In this document: positions 6,743-34,368 of the stretch, in pieces
How positions within the stretch are numbered: the first letter of the stretch is position 1
Layout: every line of letters begins with the position of its first letter
DNA from: Pseudonocardia alni
GTDB lineage: Bacteria > Actinomycetota > Actinomycetes > Mycobacteriales > Pseudonocardiaceae
Reading direction: 5' to 3'
DNA: 64,000 nucleotides
Assembly: GCF_002813375.1 (NCBI RefSeq)
Contig: NZ_PHUJ01000003.1
Span: forward strand, 1,860,001-1,924,000
The notes under the pieces: generated by a model
What the model saw: only the letters and a program-made list of their open reading frames with translations
What the model was told of the DNA's origin: nothing
Database searches by the model: none
Made by a program: the position numbers and the translations under genes

Positions 6743-7177
6743 TCAGTCGGGCACCGGGAACAGCGGGGCGTGGCCCCCGGGGCCCTCCGGCGGCGGGTGC
6801 GGGTCGAGCACCCGCAGGTGCTCGCACGTCCCGGTCACCTGCAGGACCCGGCGGACCTGGCGCGCCGCGCCGCAGTACAGCTCCAGCACCACCCCGGCCG
6901 CGGCGGCGTCGCGGTGGCAGTCCAGCAGCGCCGCGATCCCGGCCGAGCCGAGGAAGCCGACCGCGGACAGGTCCAGCACGATCCGCGGGGCCGCGGAGAA
7001 CCAGGCGCCCACCTGCTCGGCCAGGAACGGCGCGGTCGCGGCGTCGACGTCGCCGACGGCGTGCAGCGCCACCGGCCCCGACGGGTGCGGCACCGCCTCC
7101 AGGGCCAGACCGCCGCCCTCCGCGGTCGCGGCGGACAGGCCGGGCACTCCTCCCGGGCCGTCCGTCGGATCGGTCAT
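6743..7177 (-). CDS. STAS-domain protein (anti-sigma factor antagonist-like)
   Basis: A 144-residue cytoplasmic protein with a STAS fold: VALHAVGDVDAATAPFL, then IVLDLSAVGFLGSAGIAALLD, which contains the Ser typically phosphorylated in anti-sigma antagonists of the SpoIIAA/RsbV type, and a C-terminal ELYCGAARQVRRVL helix region. GGGAGG lies about nine bases upstream of ATG 7177. No partner kinase or sigma factor is adjacent, so the regulated pathway cannot be named. Convergent with the LysR gene. Confidence 0.8.
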   Translation of the reverse strand: MTDPTDGPGGVPGLSAATAEGGGLALEAVPHPSGPVALHAVGDVDAATAPFLAEQVGAWFSAAPRIVLDLSAVGFLGSAGIAALLDCHRDAAAAGVVLELYCGAARQVRRVLQVTGTCEHLRVLDPHPPPEGPGGHAPLFPVPD

Positions 7178-7312: not shown

Positions 7313-8680
7313 GTGGCCCATCACGATCTCGCAATCGTCGGCACCGGATCCGGGAACATGATCGTCGACGACCGCTTCGACGGTCTCGATGTCGCCCACG
7401 TCGAGGCGACCCGGTTCGGCGGGACCTGCCTGAACGTCGGCTGCATCCCGACCAAGATGCTCGCCTACACCGCCGAGGTCGCCGAGACCGTGCGGGCGGC
7501 GTCGTCCTACGGCGTGGACGCCCGGATCGACCGGATCCGCTGGAGCGACATCCGCGACCGGGTCTTCGCCCGGCTCGACCCGATCGGCGACGAGGGCCGC
7601 GACCACCGCCGACACGACGGCACCGTCTACGACGGCGTGGCCCGCTTCACCGGGCCGCGCGCGATGACCGTGGACCTGGGCGACGGCGGCACCGCGGAGT
7701 TCACCGCGGACCGGATCGTGCTCGCCGTCGGGGGACGGCCGGTGGTCCCGCCACCGGTCGCGGACTCGGGCGTCCCGTTCCACACCTCCGACACGATCAT
7801 GCGGATCGACGAGCTGCCCGAGCACCTGGCGATCATCGGAGGCGGCTACATCGCGGCCGAGTTCGCGCACGTGTTCGGCGGGCTGGGCTGCGCGGTCACG
7901 ATCATCGAGAGCGCCGACACACTGCTCGGCGGGATGGACGAGACCGTCGTGGAGCGGTTCACCGACGCCGCCCGCGAGCGCTTCACCGTCCACACCGGCC
8001 GGACGGTGGAGAAGGTCACCGGCGGCGAGGGCGACGTGCGGCTGCACCTCGACGACGGCACGGAGGTCCGGGCCGACCGGCTGCTCGTCGCGGCCGGGCG
8101 CCGTCCGAACTCCGACCGGCTCGGCCTGGACCACGCCGGGGTCGACACCGACGACGCCGGCCGCGTCGTCGTCGACGCCCACGGCCGCACCACCGCCGAC
8201 GGGGTGTGGGCGCTGGGCGACATCTCGACCCCGCACCCGCTCAAGCACGTCGCGAACCACGAGGCCGAGGTCGTCGGGCACAACCTCGCCCACCCCGACG
8301 ACCTGCGCGAGGTCGACCACCGGTTCGTGCCGGCCGCGGTGTTCACCACCCCGCAGATCGGCTCCGTGGGGCGCACCGAGCAGCAGTGCCGCGAGGAGGA
8401 CCTGGAGTTCCGGGTCGGGCTCCACGAGTACGCCGATGTCGCCTTCGGCTGGGCGCTGGAGGAGCAGCGCGGGTTCTGCAAGGTCCTCGTCGCCCCCGAC
8501 GGCACGCTGCTGGGGGCGCACCTGCTCGGCCCGCAGGCGTCGACGATGGTCCAGCAGCTGGTGCAGGCGATGGCGCTGGGCGTGACCGCGCAGCGGCTCG
8601 CCGACGTCCAGTACTGGATCCACCCCGCCCTGACCGAGGTGCTGGAGAACGCGCTGCGCGACGCCGTCGAGGAGGACTAG
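7313..8680 (+). CDS. mtr: Mycothione reductase
   Basis: A 455-residue NADPH-dependent flavoprotein that reduces mycothiol disulfide and so keeps the main thiol of actinobacteria reduced. It has the FAD motif IVGTGSGNMIVDD (8-20), the redox pair GGTCLNVGC (Cys39/Cys44), a second Rossmann motif IIGGGYIAAEFAHVF, the FAD motif ALGDIS, and the active-site HP in QYWIHPALTEVLENAL. The GTGSGN and HTSDT segments separate it from lipoamide dehydrogenase and match mycobacterial Mtr. Likely translated from a leaderless mRNA. Its TAG stop shares CTAG with the stop of the convergent ltrA-like gene. Confidence 0.95.
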   Translation: MAHHDLAIVGTGSGNMIVDDRFDGLDVAHVEATRFGGTCLNVGCIPTKMLAYTAEVAETVRAASSYGVDARIDRIRWSDIRDRVFARLDPIGDEGRDHRRHDGTVYDGVARFTGPRAMTVDLGDGGTAEFTADRIVLAVGGRPVVPPPVADSGVPFHTSDTIMRIDELPEHLAIIGGGYIAAEFAHVFGGLGCAVTIIESADTLLGGMDETVVERFTDAARERFTVHTGRTVEKVTGGEGDVRLHLDDGTEVRADRLLVAAGRRPNSDRLGLDHAGVDTDDAGRVVVDAHGRTTADGVWALGDISTPHPLKHVANHEAEVVGHNLAHPDDLREVDHRFVPAAVFTTPQIGSVGRTEQQCREEDLEFRVGLHEYADVAFGWALEEQRGFCKVLVAPDGTLLGAHLLGPQASTMVQQLVQAMALGVTAQRLADVQYWIHPALTEVLENALRDAVEED

Positions 8681-28072: not shown

Positions 28073-28152
28073 GTGCGTGAGCATCGCAGCGAGCCCTGGC
28101 GAGCGAGGAGCGGAGCGTGCCCGGTGATCGACCGGACCGGCGAGGAGATCCG
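28073..28152. repeat. Repeat-like GC-rich spacer between paaD and paaE
   Basis: This stretch is rich in the GAGC/GCGAG word (GCATCGCAGCGAGC, GGCGAGCGAGGAGCGGAGCG). It can also be read as a short GTG-started frame ending at the paaE start. Similar GAGCG-rich words occur at 22275-22300 and 48737-48765. It may be one copy of a dispersed short element; a genome search is needed. Confidence 0.35.
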
Positions 28153-29322
28153 ATGAGCGAGCGGCGCGCGGCGGCGTGGCAGGCCCGGGCCAACCAGGCG
28201 TACGGCCGGACGACGCTCGCCCTGGACGACGAGATCGAGGCCCTGCTGGCCGAGGACGACGCGCTGCCCGCCGGCTTCCACCGGCTCGTGGTGACCGAGG
28301 TCGACCGGCTGTGCGACGACGCCGTGGCCGTCACCTTCGACGTCCCCGAGGATCTGCGCGGGCACTACGACTTCCGGCCCGGCCAGTATCTGACCCTCCG
28401 GAAGGTCACCGCCGACGGCGAGGAGCGCCGGTCGTACTCGATCTGCTCCGCCGCCGGGACCGCACCGCGGGTGGGGGTGCGCCGGGTCGACGGCGGCCTG
28501 TTCTCCGCCTGGCTGGTCGACGAGGTGAGCCCGGGCGACGTCGTCGAGGTCGGCCCGCCGGCCGGGTCGTTCACCCCGGAGCTGACCGCGGGCACGCACC
28601 ACGGACTCGTCGCCGCCGGGTCCGGGATCACCCCGGTGCTGTCGATCGCGGCGTCGCTGCTGGCCGCGCACGACGACACCCGCGTCACCCTCGTCTACGG
28701 CAACCGGCGGACCGACACGGTGATGTTCACCGAGGAGATCGCCGACCTGAAGAACCGCTACGGCCCGCGGCTGCACCTGCTCCACGTGCTCTCGCGCGAG
28801 CCCACCGAGGCCGAGATCGTCAACGGCAGGCTGGACGCCGACCGGCTGCGGCTGCTGTTCACCGCGCTGGTCGACACCGGCGACGTCGACGACTGGTGGC
28901 TGTGCGGCCCGCTCGGCATGACCGAGGCCGCGGTCGCGGTGCTCGGTGAGCGGGGCGTCGAGCGGCGCCGGGTGCACCGCGAGCTGTTCTACGTCGACGA
29001 GCCGCCGCCGGAGGTCGACCGCCACGAGCCCGAGCCGGACGGCGACGGCGCGCAGGTCACGGTCGTCCTCGACGGACGGTCGACGACGCTGGCCGTCCCG
29101 GCGGGCGAGTACGTCCTCGACGCCGCCCAGAAGGTCCGCGGCGACCTCCCGTTCGCCTGCAAGGGCGGGGTGTGCGGGACGTGCCGGGCGAAGGTGACCG
29201 GCGGCGAGGTGACCATGCGGCGCAACTACGCGCTGGAGGACGACGAGGTCGCCGCCGGGTTCGTCCTCACCTGCCAGTCCCGCCCGGTGACCGACACCGC
29301 CACGGTCGACTACGACGCCTGA
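28153..29322 (+). CDS. paaE: Phenylacetyl-CoA epoxidase reductase subunit
   Basis: 389 residues. Class IA-like ferredoxin reductase: FAD-binding domain with RRSYSIC, NAD(P)-binding domain with GSGITPVLSIAASL and CGPLGMTE, and a C-terminal plant-type [2Fe-2S] domain with CKGGVCGTCRAKV and a last Cys in LTCQSRP. It supplies electrons from NADPH to PaaAC. ATG 28153 follows GAGGAG. The N-terminus carries an extra ~35 residues before the reductase fold. Confidence 0.95.
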   Translation: MSERRAAAWQARANQAYGRTTLALDDEIEALLAEDDALPAGFHRLVVTEVDRLCDDAVAVTFDVPEDLRGHYDFRPGQYLTLRKVTADGEERRSYSICSAAGTAPRVGVRRVDGGLFSAWLVDEVSPGDVVEVGPPAGSFTPELTAGTHHGLVAAGSGITPVLSIAASLLAAHDDTRVTLVYGNRRTDTVMFTEEIADLKNRYGPRLHLLHVLSREPTEAEIVNGRLDADRLRLLFTALVDTGDVDDWWLCGPLGMTEAAVAVLGERGVERRRVHRELFYVDEPPPEVDRHEPEPDGDGAQVTVVLDGRSTTLAVPAGEYVLDAAQKVRGDLPFACKGGVCGTCRAKVTGGEVTMRRNYALEDDEVAAGFVLTCQSRPVTDTATVDYDA

Positions 29323-29333
29323 TACTGGCGGGC

Positions 29334-30110
29334 ATGACCACGTCGCGTCGCGGCCACCCGGTGGGACCGACCGGATCGGTCGTGGTGCGCGCGCTCGGTC
29401 TGCTCGACGCGTTCGGGCCCGACCGGCCCGCGCTGTCGCTCAGCGACCTCGCCCGGCACGCCGGCGTCCCGTTGTCGACCGCGCACCGGCTCGTCGCCGA
29501 CCTGGCGGCGTGGGGCGCGCTGGAACGTGACGACGAGGGCCGCTACCGGATCGGGCTGCGCGTCTGGGAGCTCGGCGCGCTCGCCCCGCGCGGGCAGGCG
29601 CTGCGCGAGACGGCGCTGCCGTTCCTGGAGGACCTGTCCCGAGTCACCCGGGAGAACGTGCAGCTCGCGGTGCGCGAGGGCGCCGAGGTGGTGTTCGTCG
29701 AGCGGCTCGCCGGCTCCGGCGCGGTCCCGGTGCAGACCCGGGTCGGGGGGCGTTTCGCGCTCACCGCGACCGGGGTCGGGCTGGTACTGCTCGCGCACTC
29801 GCCGCCGGAGCTGCAGGACGAGGTACTGGGCGCGCGGATCGAGCGCTACACCCCGTTCACGGTGACCGACCCGCAGCGGATGCGCCGCATGCTCGCCGAC
29901 GTCCGCCGCGACGGCCACTCGGTCAGCGACCGGCAGGTCACCGACGACGCGCTGTCGGTCGGCGCCCCCGTCTCCGACGCCCGTGGTCAGGTCGTCGCGG
30001 CCGCCTCACTCGTCGTGCGGCACGGCAGCGTGTCCGCCCGCGCGCTCGCCCCGCTGGTGCGCACCACCGCCGCCGGGATCAGCCGCGCGCTCAGCACCTC
30101 CACGTGCTGA
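29334..30110 (+). CDS. IclR family transcriptional regulator
   Basis: 258 residues: N-terminal winged helix (LSDLARHAGVPLSTAHRLVADLAAWGALERD) and a C-terminal effector domain (RGQALRETALPFLEDLSRVTRENVQLAVREG, ending with SLVVRHG). Placed 11 bases after paaE but immediately before the transporter-vanA-vanB unit, so it more likely controls vanillate-type catabolism. An inverted repeat lies directly after its stop at that promoter. PadR or GntR regulators control vanAB in better-known bacteria, so an IclR here would be a different solution. Confidence 0.87.
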   Translation: MTTSRRGHPVGPTGSVVVRALGLLDAFGPDRPALSLSDLARHAGVPLSTAHRLVADLAAWGALERDDEGRYRIGLRVWELGALAPRGQALRETALPFLEDLSRVTRENVQLAVREGAEVVFVERLAGSGAVPVQTRVGGRFALTATGVGLVLLAHSPPELQDEVLGARIERYTPFTVTDPQRMRRMLADVRRDGHSVSDRQVTDDALSVGAPVSDARGQVVAAASLVVRHGSVSARALAPLVRTTAAGISRALSTSTC

Positions 30111-30207: not shown

Positions 30208-31551
30208 ATGCGCCCATCCCCCGCGGCGGACACCGTCCGCCGCCTGCTCGACGACGCACCGATGTCCCGGTACCAGTGGGGCGCGGTCGCGGCGTGCGTC
30301 CTGCTCAACGTCCTCGACGGCTTCGACGTGCTGGTCATGGCCTTCACGGGCCGCTCGGTCGCCACCGAGTGGGACCTGTCCGCCAGCCAGCTCGGGCTGC
30401 TCCTGTCCGCGGGCCTGGTCGGCATGGCCGCCGGTTCGGTCCTCATCGGACCGTGGGCCGACCGCGTCGGGCGGCGGCCGATCGTGCTGGGCTGCCTGGT
30501 CGTGGCGGGCCTCGCCATGCTGGGCTCGGCCGCGGCGCAGTCCCCCGGCCAGCTCGGCGCGCTGCGGCTGATCACCGGGCTCGGCGTCGGCGGCATCCTC
30601 GCCACCAGCAACGTCGTCGCCGCGGAGTACGCCTCGGCCCGCTGGCGGGGGCTCGCGGTCAGCCTGAACTCCACCGGCTACGCGATCGGGGCCGTCCTCG
30701 GCGGCGTGCTCGCGGCCACGCTGATCGGGCAGTTCGGCTGGCGGTCGGTGTTCCTCGCCGGGGGCCTGGCGACCCTGGCCGCGGTCCCGCTGGTCTGGTG
30801 GCGGCTGCCGGAGTCCCTGGACTTCCTGCTCGTGCGCCGCCCGGCCGGCGCGCTGGAGCGGGTCAACGCGCTGCTGGCGCGGATGGGGCACGCCGCGCTG
30901 CCCGCCCTCCCCGACGGCGCTCCGGTGCGGACCGGCGTCGCCGCGGGGTACGGGGCGCTGCTGCGCCCGGCGCTGCGCCGCACCACGGTGCTGCTCTGGA
31001 TCAGCTTCTTCTGCGTGATGGCCGGGTTCTACTTCGTCACCAGCTGGACCCCGACCCTGCTCGTCGAGGCCGGGCTCTCCCCGGACGCGGGCATCGCCGG
31101 CGGCACGCTGCTCAACGTCGGCGGCATCTTCGGTGCCGCCGGGCTCGGCCTGCTCGCCGCCCGGTTCGCGCTGCGGCACGTGCTCGCCGGGTACCTGCTG
31201 GCCACCGCGGTGCTGCTGGCCGTGTTCATCGCCAGCACCTCCTCGCTCGCGGTGGCGTTCGTCGTCGCCGCGCTGGTCGGGCTGTTCGTCAACGGCTGCG
31301 TCGCCGGGCTGTACGCGATGGCACCGACCTCCTACGGCGCCGACGTGCGCACCACCGGCGTCGGCACCGCGCTCGCGGTCGGCCGGTCCGGAGCGATCCT
31401 CGCGCCGACCCTGGCCGGGGCGCTGCTCGACGGTGGCGCGACCCCGCAGTCGCTCTACCTGCTCTTCGCGGCCGTGTTCGTCGGCGCGGCCGCCCTCGTC
31501 CTGCTGCTCCGCCGATCCGACACCCCCACCACCCAGGGAGTCTCCGCATGA
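30208..31551 (+). CDS. MFS transporter, aromatic acid:H+ symporter (AAHS) family
   Basis: 447 residues with 12 predicted helices. AAHS signatures are visible: LLNVLDGFDVLVMAFTGRSV in helix 1, GPWADRVGRRPIVLGC after helix 2, LRLITGLGVGGIL in helix 4, and APTSYGADVRTTGVGTALAVGR. Operon position with vanA/vanB suggests uptake of vanillate or a related methoxylated benzoate, as for VanK/PcaK. A GGAG element precedes the ATG. Its stop overlaps the vanA ATG. Confidence 0.9.
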   Translation: MRPSPAADTVRRLLDDAPMSRYQWGAVAACVLLNVLDGFDVLVMAFTGRSVATEWDLSASQLGLLLSAGLVGMAAGSVLIGPWADRVGRRPIVLGCLVVAGLAMLGSAAAQSPGQLGALRLITGLGVGGILATSNVVAAEYASARWRGLAVSLNSTGYAIGAVLGGVLAATLIGQFGWRSVFLAGGLATLAAVPLVWWRLPESLDFLLVRRPAGALERVNALLARMGHAALPALPDGAPVRTGVAAGYGALLRPALRRTTVLLWISFFCVMAGFYFVTSWTPTLLVEAGLSPDAGIAGGTLLNVGGIFGAAGLGLLAARFALRHVLAGYLLATAVLLAVFIASTSSLAVAFVVAALVGLFVNGCVAGLYAMAPTSYGADVRTTGVGTALAVGRSGAILAPTLAGALLDGGATPQSLYLLFAAVFVGAAALVLLLRRSDTPTTQGVSA

Positions 31552-32612
31552 GCTCGATCCCCCGCGACCAGTGGTACGTCGCCGCCTACTCCGCCGAGAT
31601 CGGCCGCGAGCTGTTCGGCCGCACGATCTGCGACGAGCCGATCCTGTTCTGGCGCACCGAGGCCGGCCAGGTCACCGCGCACGCCGACCGCTGCGTGCAC
31701 CGCCGGTTCCCGCTGTCCCAGGCCCCGAGCCGGCTGGTCGGCGACACCGTCGTCTGCGGCTACCACGGATTCACCTACGGCGCCGACGGGAAGTGCGTGG
31801 CGGTGCCGGGGCAGAACCGGGTGCCGCGCACGGCCCGGCTGGCGGCCTACCCCGTCGTCGAGCAGGACTCGCTGATCTGGGTCTGGATCGGGGACCCGGA
31901 GCGCGCCGACCCGCTGCGCATCCCCCGCGCGACCTACCTCGACGACGCCGCGTGGACCACGGTGCGCGGGATGGAACCGCTGGCCGCCCGGTTCTCGCTG
32001 CTGGTGGACAACCTGCTCGACCTGTCGCACGAGACCTACCTGCACGGCGGCTACATCGGCACCCCCGAGGTCGCCGCCACCCCGATCTCCACCGAGGTCG
32101 ACGAGGACGCCGGCGTCGTCTACGTCTCGCGGCACATGGCCGACGCCGAGTGCCCGCCGTTCTACGAACGCTCCACCGGCCTGTCCGGGCGGATCTCGCG
32201 CTGGCAGGACATCGAGTACACCCCGCCGTGCCTGTACAAGCTGCACTCCCGGATCGCGCCGGTCGGCTCGGTCCCGCGCGCCGACGGCTCCGACCCGGAC
32301 GCCTTCCACGTGGAGGTCGTGTACGCGATCACCCCGGAGACCGAGCACTCCACACACGACTTCTGGATGGTCGCGCGCGACTTCGCCCTCGCCGACGTCG
32401 AGGTCTCGGCGTTCCTCGCCGAGCAGAACCGCACCGTCGTGCTCCAGGACGTCGAGGCGCTCGACGTGCTGGAGAAGGTGATCGCCACCGAGCCGGCGGG
32501 CTACCAGGAGCTGTCGGTCAACATCGACACCGGCGGGCTCGCCGCGCGCCGGATGCTCGCCCGGATGGCCGGCGCGGCACCGGCGGTCCCGTCCCCGACG
32601 CCCGCCCGGTGA
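31548..32612 (+). CDS. vanA: Vanillate O-demethylase oxygenase subunit-like Rieske protein
   Basis: 354 residues. The Rieske [2Fe-2S] ligands are Cys49, His51, Cys70 and His73 (ADRCVHR, CGYHGFTY). The mononuclear iron site lies in DNLLDLSHETYLH (Asp158, His161, His166). The overall pattern fits the VanA/toluate monooxygenase group, which removes O-methyl groups as formaldehyde. With the adjacent VanB and AAHS transporter, vanillate to protocatechuate is the best guess; related substrates such as isovanillate or veratrate remain possible. Confidence 0.87.
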   Translation: MSSIPRDQWYVAAYSAEIGRELFGRTICDEPILFWRTEAGQVTAHADRCVHRRFPLSQAPSRLVGDTVVCGYHGFTYGADGKCVAVPGQNRVPRTARLAAYPVVEQDSLIWVWIGDPERADPLRIPRATYLDDAAWTTVRGMEPLAARFSLLVDNLLDLSHETYLHGGYIGTPEVAATPISTEVDEDAGVVYVSRHMADAECPPFYERSTGLSGRISRWQDIEYTPPCLYKLHSRIAPVGSVPRADGSDPDAFHVEVVYAITPETEHSTHDFWMVARDFALADVEVSAFLAEQNRTVVLQDVEALDVLEKVIATEPAGYQELSVNIDTGGLAARRMLARMAGAAPAVPSPTPAR

Positions 32613-32800
32613 GCGCGATCCCCGAGGCCCCGCCCGTCCTGCACGGGCACCGTGTCCAGCGCATCCACTGGGTGCTGGGCACCGACCTGCTGCGCGCGGT
32701 ATGCCACTGCGGCGCCGAACGCGTCTTCGACGACCCGGTGCCGCTGTGGGACTGGCTGCTGGGCTGCCCCGTGGACCACGAGACCTGGAGTACGTCGTGA
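32609..32800 (+). CDS. Small Cys-containing protein encoded between vanA and vanB
   Basis: 63 residues, not recognised. GTG 32609 overlaps the vanA TGA, and its own TGA overlaps the vanB GTG, so it is sandwiched by two four-base overlaps and must be translated for tight coupling. The sequence has VCHCGAERVF (Cys32, His33, Cys34), an aromatic stretch PLWDWLL and GCPVDHETW (Cys53, His57), which could form a metal-binding knuckle. It could be an assembly factor or a third component of the demethylase. No function is claimed. Confidence 0.72.
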   Translation: MSAIPEAPPVLHGHRVQRIHWVLGTDLLRAVCHCGAERVFDDPVPLWDWLLGCPVDHETWSTS

Positions 32801-33738
32801 CCGAACCCGAGCTGCGCCTCGAGGTGGAGAAGAAGGAGCTCCTCGCCGACGACGTCGTGCTGCTGACCCTGCGCGACCCGTCCGGTGCCGAGCTCCCGGA
32901 GTGGACGCCCGGTGCGCACCTCGACCTCGTCCTGACCGCGGACCTCGTCCGGCAGTACTCGCTGTGCGGGGACCCCGGCGAGCGCTCGGTCTACCGGGTC
33001 GCGGTGCTGCGCGAGCCTGCCGGGCGGGGCGGCTCGGCGCACGTGCACGACGTCGTCGCCGAGGGCGACACGGTGCTCGTCCGCGGGCCGCGCAACCGGT
33101 TCGCACTCGTCGACGCCCCGGGCTATGTGTTCGTCGCCGGCGGGATCGGCATCACCCCGCTGGTCCCGATGATCGCGGCGGCGCACGCCGCGGGCGCGGA
33201 CTGGCAGCTCGTCCACGGCGGGCGCAGCCGGGCGTCGATGGCGTTCACCGAGCTCGCCGGGCGTCACCCCGACCGGGTGGCCCTGGTGCCGCAGGACGAG
33301 GCGGGGCTGCTCGACGTCGCCGGGATCCTGGCCGCGGCCGCCGGGCGGCCCGTGTACTGCTGCGGGCCGGAGGGGCTGCTCGCCGCCGTCGAGGCCGAGG
33401 GGGAGCGTCTCGGCGTGCCGGTGCACGTCGAGCGGTTCTCCGCCCGGCCCGGCGCGCTCGACGGCCCGGACGAGGCGTTCGAGGTGGAACTGTCGGGGTC
33501 GGGGACGGTCGTCGCCGTCCCGGCGGGCTGCTCGATCCTCGACGCCCTGGAGGGCGCGGGGATCGCGACGCTGTCCTCGTGCCGGGAGGGGACCTGCGGG
33601 ACCTGCGAGACCGGGGTCCTCGCCGGCGAGCCGGACCACCGGGACTCGCTGCTCACCGAGGAGGAGCAGGCGTCGAACGAGGTGATGATGCTGTGCGTGT
33701 CGCGCTCCCGGTCGCCGCGGCTGGTGCTCGAGCTCTGA
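32797..33738 (+). CDS. vanB: Vanillate O-demethylase reductase subunit-like protein
   Basis: 313 residues, phthalate-dioxygenase-reductase/VanB type: FMN-binding RQYSLCGD, nucleotide-binding GGIGITPLVPMI and CCGPEGLL, and a C-terminal [2Fe-2S] domain with CREGTCGTCETGVL and a last Cys in MMLCVSRS. It passes electrons from NAD(P)H to the Rieske oxygenase VanA. GTG 32797 overlaps the stop of the small gene. A second reductase of the same type serves the dioxygenase at the right edge. Confidence 0.93.
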   Translation: MTEPELRLEVEKKELLADDVVLLTLRDPSGAELPEWTPGAHLDLVLTADLVRQYSLCGDPGERSVYRVAVLREPAGRGGSAHVHDVVAEGDTVLVRGPRNRFALVDAPGYVFVAGGIGITPLVPMIAAAHAAGADWQLVHGGRSRASMAFTELAGRHPDRVALVPQDEAGLLDVAGILAAAAGRPVYCCGPEGLLAAVEAEGERLGVPVHVERFSARPGALDGPDEAFEVELSGSGTVVAVPAGCSILDALEGAGIATLSSCREGTCGTCETGVLAGEPDHRDSLLTEEEQASNEVMMLCVSRSRSPRLVLEL

Positions 33739-33765: not shown

Positions 33766-34368
33766 GTGTTCGTCAAGGTGTGCGGGCTGCGGACCCCCGG
33801 TGACGTCGACGCGGCCGTGGCCGCCGGCGCCGACGCGGTCGGGTTCGTCGTGTATCCGCCGAGCCCCCGCCACGTCGACCCGGCCGACCTCGGTGCGCTC
33901 GTCGCCCGGGTGCCGGACGGCGTGCGGTCGGTCGTCGTCGTCGCCGACCTGCCCGCCGACCGGGCCGCGGCGGTGACCACCGACGCCGGCGCCGACGTGC
34001 TGCAGCTGCACGGCCGCTACACCCGCGACGACTTCACCGCGGCCGCCCGCGCGCCGATCACCCTGTGGCGGGCGACCTCGCTGGCCCACGACCCCGACCT
34101 CACCGTGGGCCTGTACGGCGAGGACCTGCTGCTGCTCGACTCCCCCGTCGCCGGGTCCGGCGAGCGCTGGGACGCCGAGGCGCTCGACCCGCGACCGGCC
34201 GGGAGGTGGCTGCTCGCGGGCGGGCTGGACCCGGACACCGTCGCCACCGCGGTGCGCCGCGTCCGTCCCTGGGGCGTCGACGTCTCCAGCGGCGTCGAGT
34301 CGTCCCGCGGTGTGAAGGACCACGCCCGCATCCGCGACTTCGTCGCCGCCGCCCGCGCCGTGGGCTGA
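33766..34368 (+). CDS. trpF: Phosphoribosylanthranilate isomerase
   Basis: 200 residues, TIM barrel of tryptophan biosynthesis. The catalytic Cys6 (VKVCGLR) and Asp125 (LLLLDSP), phosphate-binding ADAVGFVVYPPSPRHV, LQLHG, and the C-terminal AGGLDPDTVATAV with GVDVSSGVESSRGVKD are all present, so the enzyme looks functional. Many actinomycetes rely on the dual-function PriA instead of TrpF, and here trpF stands alone between vanB and a CoA-transferase operon. The gene may be a later acquisition. Confidence 0.92.
   Translation: MFVKVCGLRTPGDVDAAVAAGADAVGFVVYPPSPRHVDPADLGALVARVPDGVRSVVVVADLPADRAAAVTTDAGADVLQLHGRYTRDDFTAAARAPITLWRATSLAHDPDLTVGLYGEDLLLLDSPVAGSGERWDAEALDPRPAGRWLLAGGLDPDTVATAVRRVRPWGVDVSSGVESSRGVKDHARIRDFVAAARAVG

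Follow-up and report, generated by a model that had tools for sequence, protein, structure and literature searches.

A conserved gene without a name between vanA and vanB in actinobacterial VanAB operons, and the putative metal-binding protein that it encodes

The question raised by this locus is whether a tiny frame wedged between the genes for the oxygenase and the reductase of a VanAB-type demethylase is a gene in its own right and, if so, what its product might contribute. In the window (the whole stretch of 64,000 nucleotides of Pseudonocardia alni that was analyzed) the frame occupies positions 32609..32800 of the forward strand, with a GTG start, 63 codons and a TGA stop. As the first-pass annotation had described, it overlaps both of its neighbors by four bases: its GTG lies within the end of vanA (vanA TGA at 32610-32612), and its own TGA (32798-32800) lies within the start of vanB (GTG at 32797). 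The vanA-like gene (31548..32612, + strand, ATG start) encodes a Rieske oxygenase of 354 residues with the Pfam Rieske and VanA_C domains (PF00355 and PF19112, both above cut-offs), and the vanB-like gene (32797..33738, + strand) encodes a reductase of 313 residues with FAD_binding_6, NAD_binding_1 and Fer2 domains (PF00970, PF00175 and PF00111, all above cut-offs, the first two narrowly). A GGAG at 32787..32790 (+ strand), inside the small gene and ahead of the vanB GTG, is a possible ribosome-binding site judged from the sequence. Upstream on the same strand are a gene for an MFS transporter (30208..31551; start chosen by eye), whose stop overlaps the vanA start at 31548 and which is present in only some relatives of the locus, and an IclR-family regulator gene (29334..30110; named from the annotated relatives L167 and L168), which in other lineages is found 3' of vanB. 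The surroundings also include a PaaE-like reductase frame upstream of the IclR-family gene (28117-29322) and a TrpF-like frame downstream of vanB (33766-34368), both named by eye.

The small frame is a real, conserved, protein-coding gene that carries no name. Its GC content by codon position is 75/49/94%, the high third-position value being what a coding frame in GC-rich DNA would be expected to show. A first homologue search with the protein found 50 relatives and a profile search found 923 homologues at E values up to 0.01; among the 120 of these that were listed, the informative names are hypothetical or uncharacterized, apart from a second name, 'Lsr2 protein', in one case. In 10/10 pairs involving the window gene dN is lower than dS (ratio 0.02 to 0.58), and the same holds in 10/10 further picked pairs that do not involve it; the gene is thus under purifying selection, as dN < dS in all 20 pairs tried. 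A lack of homologues elsewhere, or of codon conservation, had been named at the outset as grounds for giving the gene up, and both homologues and conservation were found. Because the homologues are conserved, dN is below dS, and many genera retain the gene at this position between the two enzyme genes, the frame is more than a chance one.

A ribosome-binding-like motif precedes vanA in 134/148 loci and vanB in 68/148 loci, and the small gene in only 38/148. Since so few copies of the small gene have such a motif, it is likely translated by re-initiation after vanA. The same scarcity (38/148) would suit a translational spacer or read-through peptide that has no role as a protein of its own; however, dN below dS in 20/20 pairs, together with the invariant residues described below, indicates selection on the protein and already contradicts this reading, which can for practical purposes be set aside.

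With the small protein as query, no family match was returned by searches of Pfam, NCBIfam or PDB sequences, and a Foldseek search with its predicted structure gave no match either. Its residues were therefore counted directly in 144 distinct copies, leaving out L053 (start misplaced), L194 (missed by BLAST), L051 (unknown bases), L127-L129 (no vanA) and L082-L111. Cys32 and Cys34, which are predicted metal ligands and whose codons with that of His33 lie at 32702..32710 (+ strand), are invariant (144/144). Residue 53, a further predicted ligand (codon at 32765..32767, + strand), is Cys in the window and His in nearly all relatives (His in 140/144, Cys in 4/144); the four Cys variants fall in two separate genera, with the window and L002 on one side and L251 and L253, from the Rhodococcus jostii RHA1 genus, on the other. 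This residue fits a metal ligand, since exchange of His for Cys at an otherwise fixed place would be allowed for a ligand. Residue 57, the predicted fourth ligand (His57 in the window, codon at 32777..32779, + strand), is His in 119 of the 144 copies, Pro in 24 and Ala in one, and where it is not His, a His sits one residue earlier, a shift seen in some lineages; in 144/144 copies residue 53 is followed by a His at a spacing of three or four residues (134 found by script, 10 by eye). Residue 33 is His in 104/112 copies and is not invariant.

All four conserved ligand places of a Cys2His2-type pattern, Cys-X-Cys ... [His/Cys] ... His, are present, and from this pattern a metal site in the small protein is likely. 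The first-pass annotation had pointed to a CHC plus C...H motif and to metal or Fe-S binding. The motif is there, with Cys32 and Cys34 invariant, although His33 varies and Cys53 is mostly His in relatives; metal binding is likely from the ligand pattern, whereas an Fe-S cluster gains no direct support, the two invariant Cys falling short of the four of a 2Fe-2S ferredoxin. The predicted structure has strands at residues 18-21, 28-31 and 37-40 and a helix at 43-51, a beta-beta-beta-alpha core for which no match was found in the PDB. The mean pLDDT is 78, with blocks over residues 21-50 at 93, 90 and 94, and it is only 63 over residues 51-60, where two of the four predicted ligands sit. The order of strands and helix would bring the Cys-X-Cys turn to the same end of the fold as the point where the helix stops.

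Whether the gene is tied to vanA and vanB was judged from its neighborhoods. Of 192 stretches picked up by a locus search, 156 were relatives, and the best 80 were kept as named loci. Among these best 80 of 156, vanA is directly upstream of the small gene in 80/80 and vanB is downstream in 79/80, where a vanB within 700 bases was counted and in one locus it lies more than 120 bases past the small-gene stop; L051, the sole locus without vanB, shows a stretch of unknown bases at this place. (At L018 and L034 there are two vanA-small gene-vanB sets per locus, and the second small protein is the more divergent.) Genomes were also sampled at the level of the order (397 genomes) and of the class (394 genomes), with two genomes common to both. 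In the order sample 70/397 genomes have a profile match; 67 of these matches are flanked by vanA and vanB, 65 of them with the overlap, and the other three, all from one genus, show neither neighbor in the stretch seen. Identity separates the VanA matches of this sample (E 1e-60 or better) into two groups: 68 genomes reach 67% or more, with the trio present in 67/68, and the other matches stay at 47% or less. In the class sample 27/394 genomes have a profile match, 25 flanked by vanA and vanB and two (L195 and L196) weak and with neither; here the small gene is found in 25/31 genomes with a VanA at 64% identity or more. The overlap with vanA reported for the window is mostly kept among relatives, a start codon lying four bases into the vanA end in 80/80 named loci (the best 80 of 156), 65/67 loci of the order sample and 22/25 of the class sample, with the caveat that after a TGA stop any base but C yields a candidate start at that position. 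Over the combined samples, the trio occurs in 90/97 genomes with a VanA at 64% identity or more, and the small gene in 90/92 genomes with an adjacent vanB and 0/5 without one; these counts are not independent, as the arrangement is inherited among related genomes.

The seven exceptions among the 97 are of two kinds. Five genomes (G068, G609, G491, G695 and G555) lack both the small gene and an adjacent vanB; for the last four, the flank covered was only about 1.5 kb. In two genomes of a single genus (G510 and G601) vanB follows vanA immediately, with an overlap in G510, and no small gene lies between; the whole-genome profile search of the class sample listed no homologue in either. The expectation that the gene always stands between vanA-like and vanB-like genes thus holds for 90/97 genomes with a close VanA, but not for these two, nor for a distant subtype that adjoins ring-cleavage-like genes (see below). 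Loss of the gene from relatives with intact vanA and vanB, which the first-pass annotation had counted against its own proposal, is indeed seen in G510 and G601, although 90/92 genomes with an adjacent vanB keep it. In the VanA tree G510 and G601 are sister to a gene-bearing lineage (support 0.89), G068, G491 and G609 fall among gene-bearing lineages, and G695 and G555 diverge close to the base. Some four losses are thus likely, provided that the small gene was present at the base of that VanA clade. As G510 and G601 have lost the small gene and kept vanA-vanB, the vanA-vanB enzyme can probably work without it, which suggests that the gene is not always essential. A further vanA-vanB pair without a small gene, with a VanA at 54% identity, heads an NRPS cluster at L169 (7001-9008, NZ_CP109497.1), a possible biosynthetic use of this type of oxygenase.

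The absence of the small gene where an adjacent vanB is also absent hints, on five genomes only, at the reductase side. It would also be accommodated by a redox relay, in which two Cys and two His (three Cys and one His in the window) would hold a small Fe-S cluster as a stepping stone for electrons on their way from VanB to VanA, and Cys2His2 or Cys3His is the ligand make-up of Rieske or CDGSH clusters. However, VanB already carries a 2Fe-2S domain, the spacing Cys-X-Cys-X18-[His/Cys]-X2-3-His is unlike the Rieske and CDGSH motifs, and 2/92 genomes with an adjacent vanB do without the small gene, so that a relay appears quite improbable. Electrons would flow from NAD(P)H through flavin and 2Fe-2S in VanB to the Rieske cluster and mononuclear iron of VanA, and because this path looks complete without the small protein, a helper role is likelier than that of an electron carrier.

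Small helpers encoded inside oxygenase operons also occur with other oxygenases, MmoD and XylT-type ferredoxins among them; for the present protein no Pfam, PDB-sequence or Foldseek match of any kind came up. The PDB sequence nearest to the window VanA is DdmC (E 3e-42), the oxygenase of dicamba O-demethylase and by sequence its nearest solved relative; that enzyme has a separate ferredoxin and reductase, and is not known to have a small CxC protein. For the small protein itself the chances seem about even that it is an accessory subunit of type II VanAB, predicted to bind one metal through Cys32, Cys34, residue 53 and His57. Ribosomes finishing vanA would re-initiate first at the small gene and next at vanB, which would keep production of the parts in step; a metal, probably zinc, would staple the two ends of the beta-beta-beta-alpha fold; and the folded knob would bind the VanA oxygenase, where it may steady VanA or the docking of the VanB reductase. 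Distance correlations single out no partner (partial r 0.28 with VanA and 0.27 with VanB).

The assignment to type II brings in the best-known relative. VanA proteins have been sorted into types with 60% identity as cut-off, R. jostii RHA1 being placed in type II and the R. aetherivorans BCP1 genes being called RHA1-like (PMC9867520). Over 343 residues the VanA proteins of the window and RHA1 share 71% identity (VanB 58%), above the cut-off of at least 60% for the RHA1-like type. RHA1 is represented here by G754 (four contigs, in the genus of G361), taken as RHA1 from a pRHL3 stretch that matches at 100% identity and the same coordinates. Its order is vanA, small gene, vanB and IclR-family gene, the same as in the window for the first three; its small gene encodes 76 residues and does not overlap vanA, the start lying 3 bases beyond the vanA stop, and there is a single VanA match at E 1e-50 or better. 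Within the RHA1 genus, 10/28 genomes have a VanA at 93% identity or more to the query, and 10/10 of these have the small gene and vanB; no small gene accompanies the four more distant VanA-like proteins in the genus (41% or less to the query). An R. aetherivorans VanA is 77% identical to that of L125, which has the small gene. Type II VanAB is nevertheless described as two-component, and the sections consulted make no mention of a small gene (PMC9867520), in keeping with the first-pass remark that a third component is foreign to the textbook enzyme. Later work employs an RHA1 strain with vanA deleted as its mutant in vanillate O-demethylase (PMC13101465). Type I (Pseudomonas, Acinetobacter) and type III (R. 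ruber R1) VanAB have VanA/VanB architecture and reaction in common with the window system, and growth on vanillate was obtained with R. ruber R1 vanAB expressed from a PCR product that is specified by two locus tags (PMC9867520).

From the 71% identity to RHA1 VanA, the substrate is probably vanillate or a close methoxybenzoate, and gene context fits conversion of vanillate to protocatechuate and formaldehyde. On a Streptomyces plasmid (L168, NZ_CP108001.1) the module adjoins 4-hydroxybenzoate 3-monooxygenase and pca genes, the small gene lying between vanA and vanB at 7999-8175 and being absent from the gene table of the record; on a Pseudonocardia plasmid the small gene is annotated as hypothetical and a P450 gene follows vanB. 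Among the genomes without the small gene, G068 has aldehyde-dehydrogenase-like and protocatechuate-3,4-dioxygenase-beta-like frames, and G555 a formaldehyde-dehydrogenase-like frame 3' of vanA (all read by eye).

A distant version of the small protein (CWCG ... WxWL..H) is found in three genomes (L163 5739-5924; L164 5825-6031; L165 3284-3514), clustered with a VanA-like gene at 44-47% identity. Around it in L164 and L165 are hydrolase-like, muconolactone-isomerase-like and ligA/ligB-like frames, read by eye (the L163 cluster was read less fully), and in L163 and L164 its GTG start overlaps the stop of the preceding frame (also by eye). This subtype widens the link to aromatic-acid catabolism and loosens that to vanB. 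Its place next to ligA/ligB-like frames, in clusters with a VanA-like gene, would be explained by a metal-delivery or iron-loading chaperone whose Cys-X-Cys/His site would supply the mononuclear site of VanA with Fe(II), and in the distant subtype the Fe(II) site of the LigAB-type dioxygenase, while the protein would not belong to the finished enzyme as a subunit; such a role would also account for loss of the small gene. The coupling between vanA and vanB, however, suggests roughly equal amounts, above what a chaperone would need, and no known family was matched; this alternative is unlikely, if still worth weighing.

Other relatives stand apart from both enzyme genes. At L166 (about 6840-7030, minus strand) one follows a gene 70% identical to the window IclR-family regulator, with no vanA or vanB and no clear start codon, and is perhaps a remnant; weaker relatives, also without vanA and vanB, occur in two more genomes of that genus (L128 and L129). 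At L195 (1459-1635, minus strand) an orphan frame of 58 residues (CECG ... WEWVLGHP) hints at a wider family of tiny CxCG proteins. The L166 relative and the CxCG-type protein alone at L195 are what would be expected if the product had a regulatory or sensing role (the signal being, for instance, formaldehyde, oxidants or substrate) and were only co-transcribed with vanAB. Such a protein would not need the strict place between two enzyme genes, and the IclR-family gene already accompanies the trio in 69/81 loci, which makes a regulatory function improbable.

The locus thus presents a known enzyme system with a third gene that has no name, for which the accessory-subunit mechanism outlined above is plausible. 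A broader proposal, offered tentatively and with somewhat less than an even chance of holding, is that type II VanAB, including that of RHA1, is a three-component system, in which metal-binding subunits of about 50-120 residues, forming a new family and translation-coupled to their neighbors, would assemble oxygenase and reductase, and that this family has been missed because its members are recorded as hypothetical proteins or left unannotated. Vanillate O-demethylation, in which methyl groups are removed from compounds derived from lignin, is central to the use of lignin. The VanA-type Rieske oxygenases have been described as a bottleneck and as notoriously hard to engineer (PMC13288931). 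Should actinobacterial VanAB require or benefit from a third protein, constructs limited to vanA and vanB would have been incomplete, and data from purified enzyme might need repeating. If the proposal is true, a class of enzymes that textbooks give as two-component would contain a hidden small subunit.
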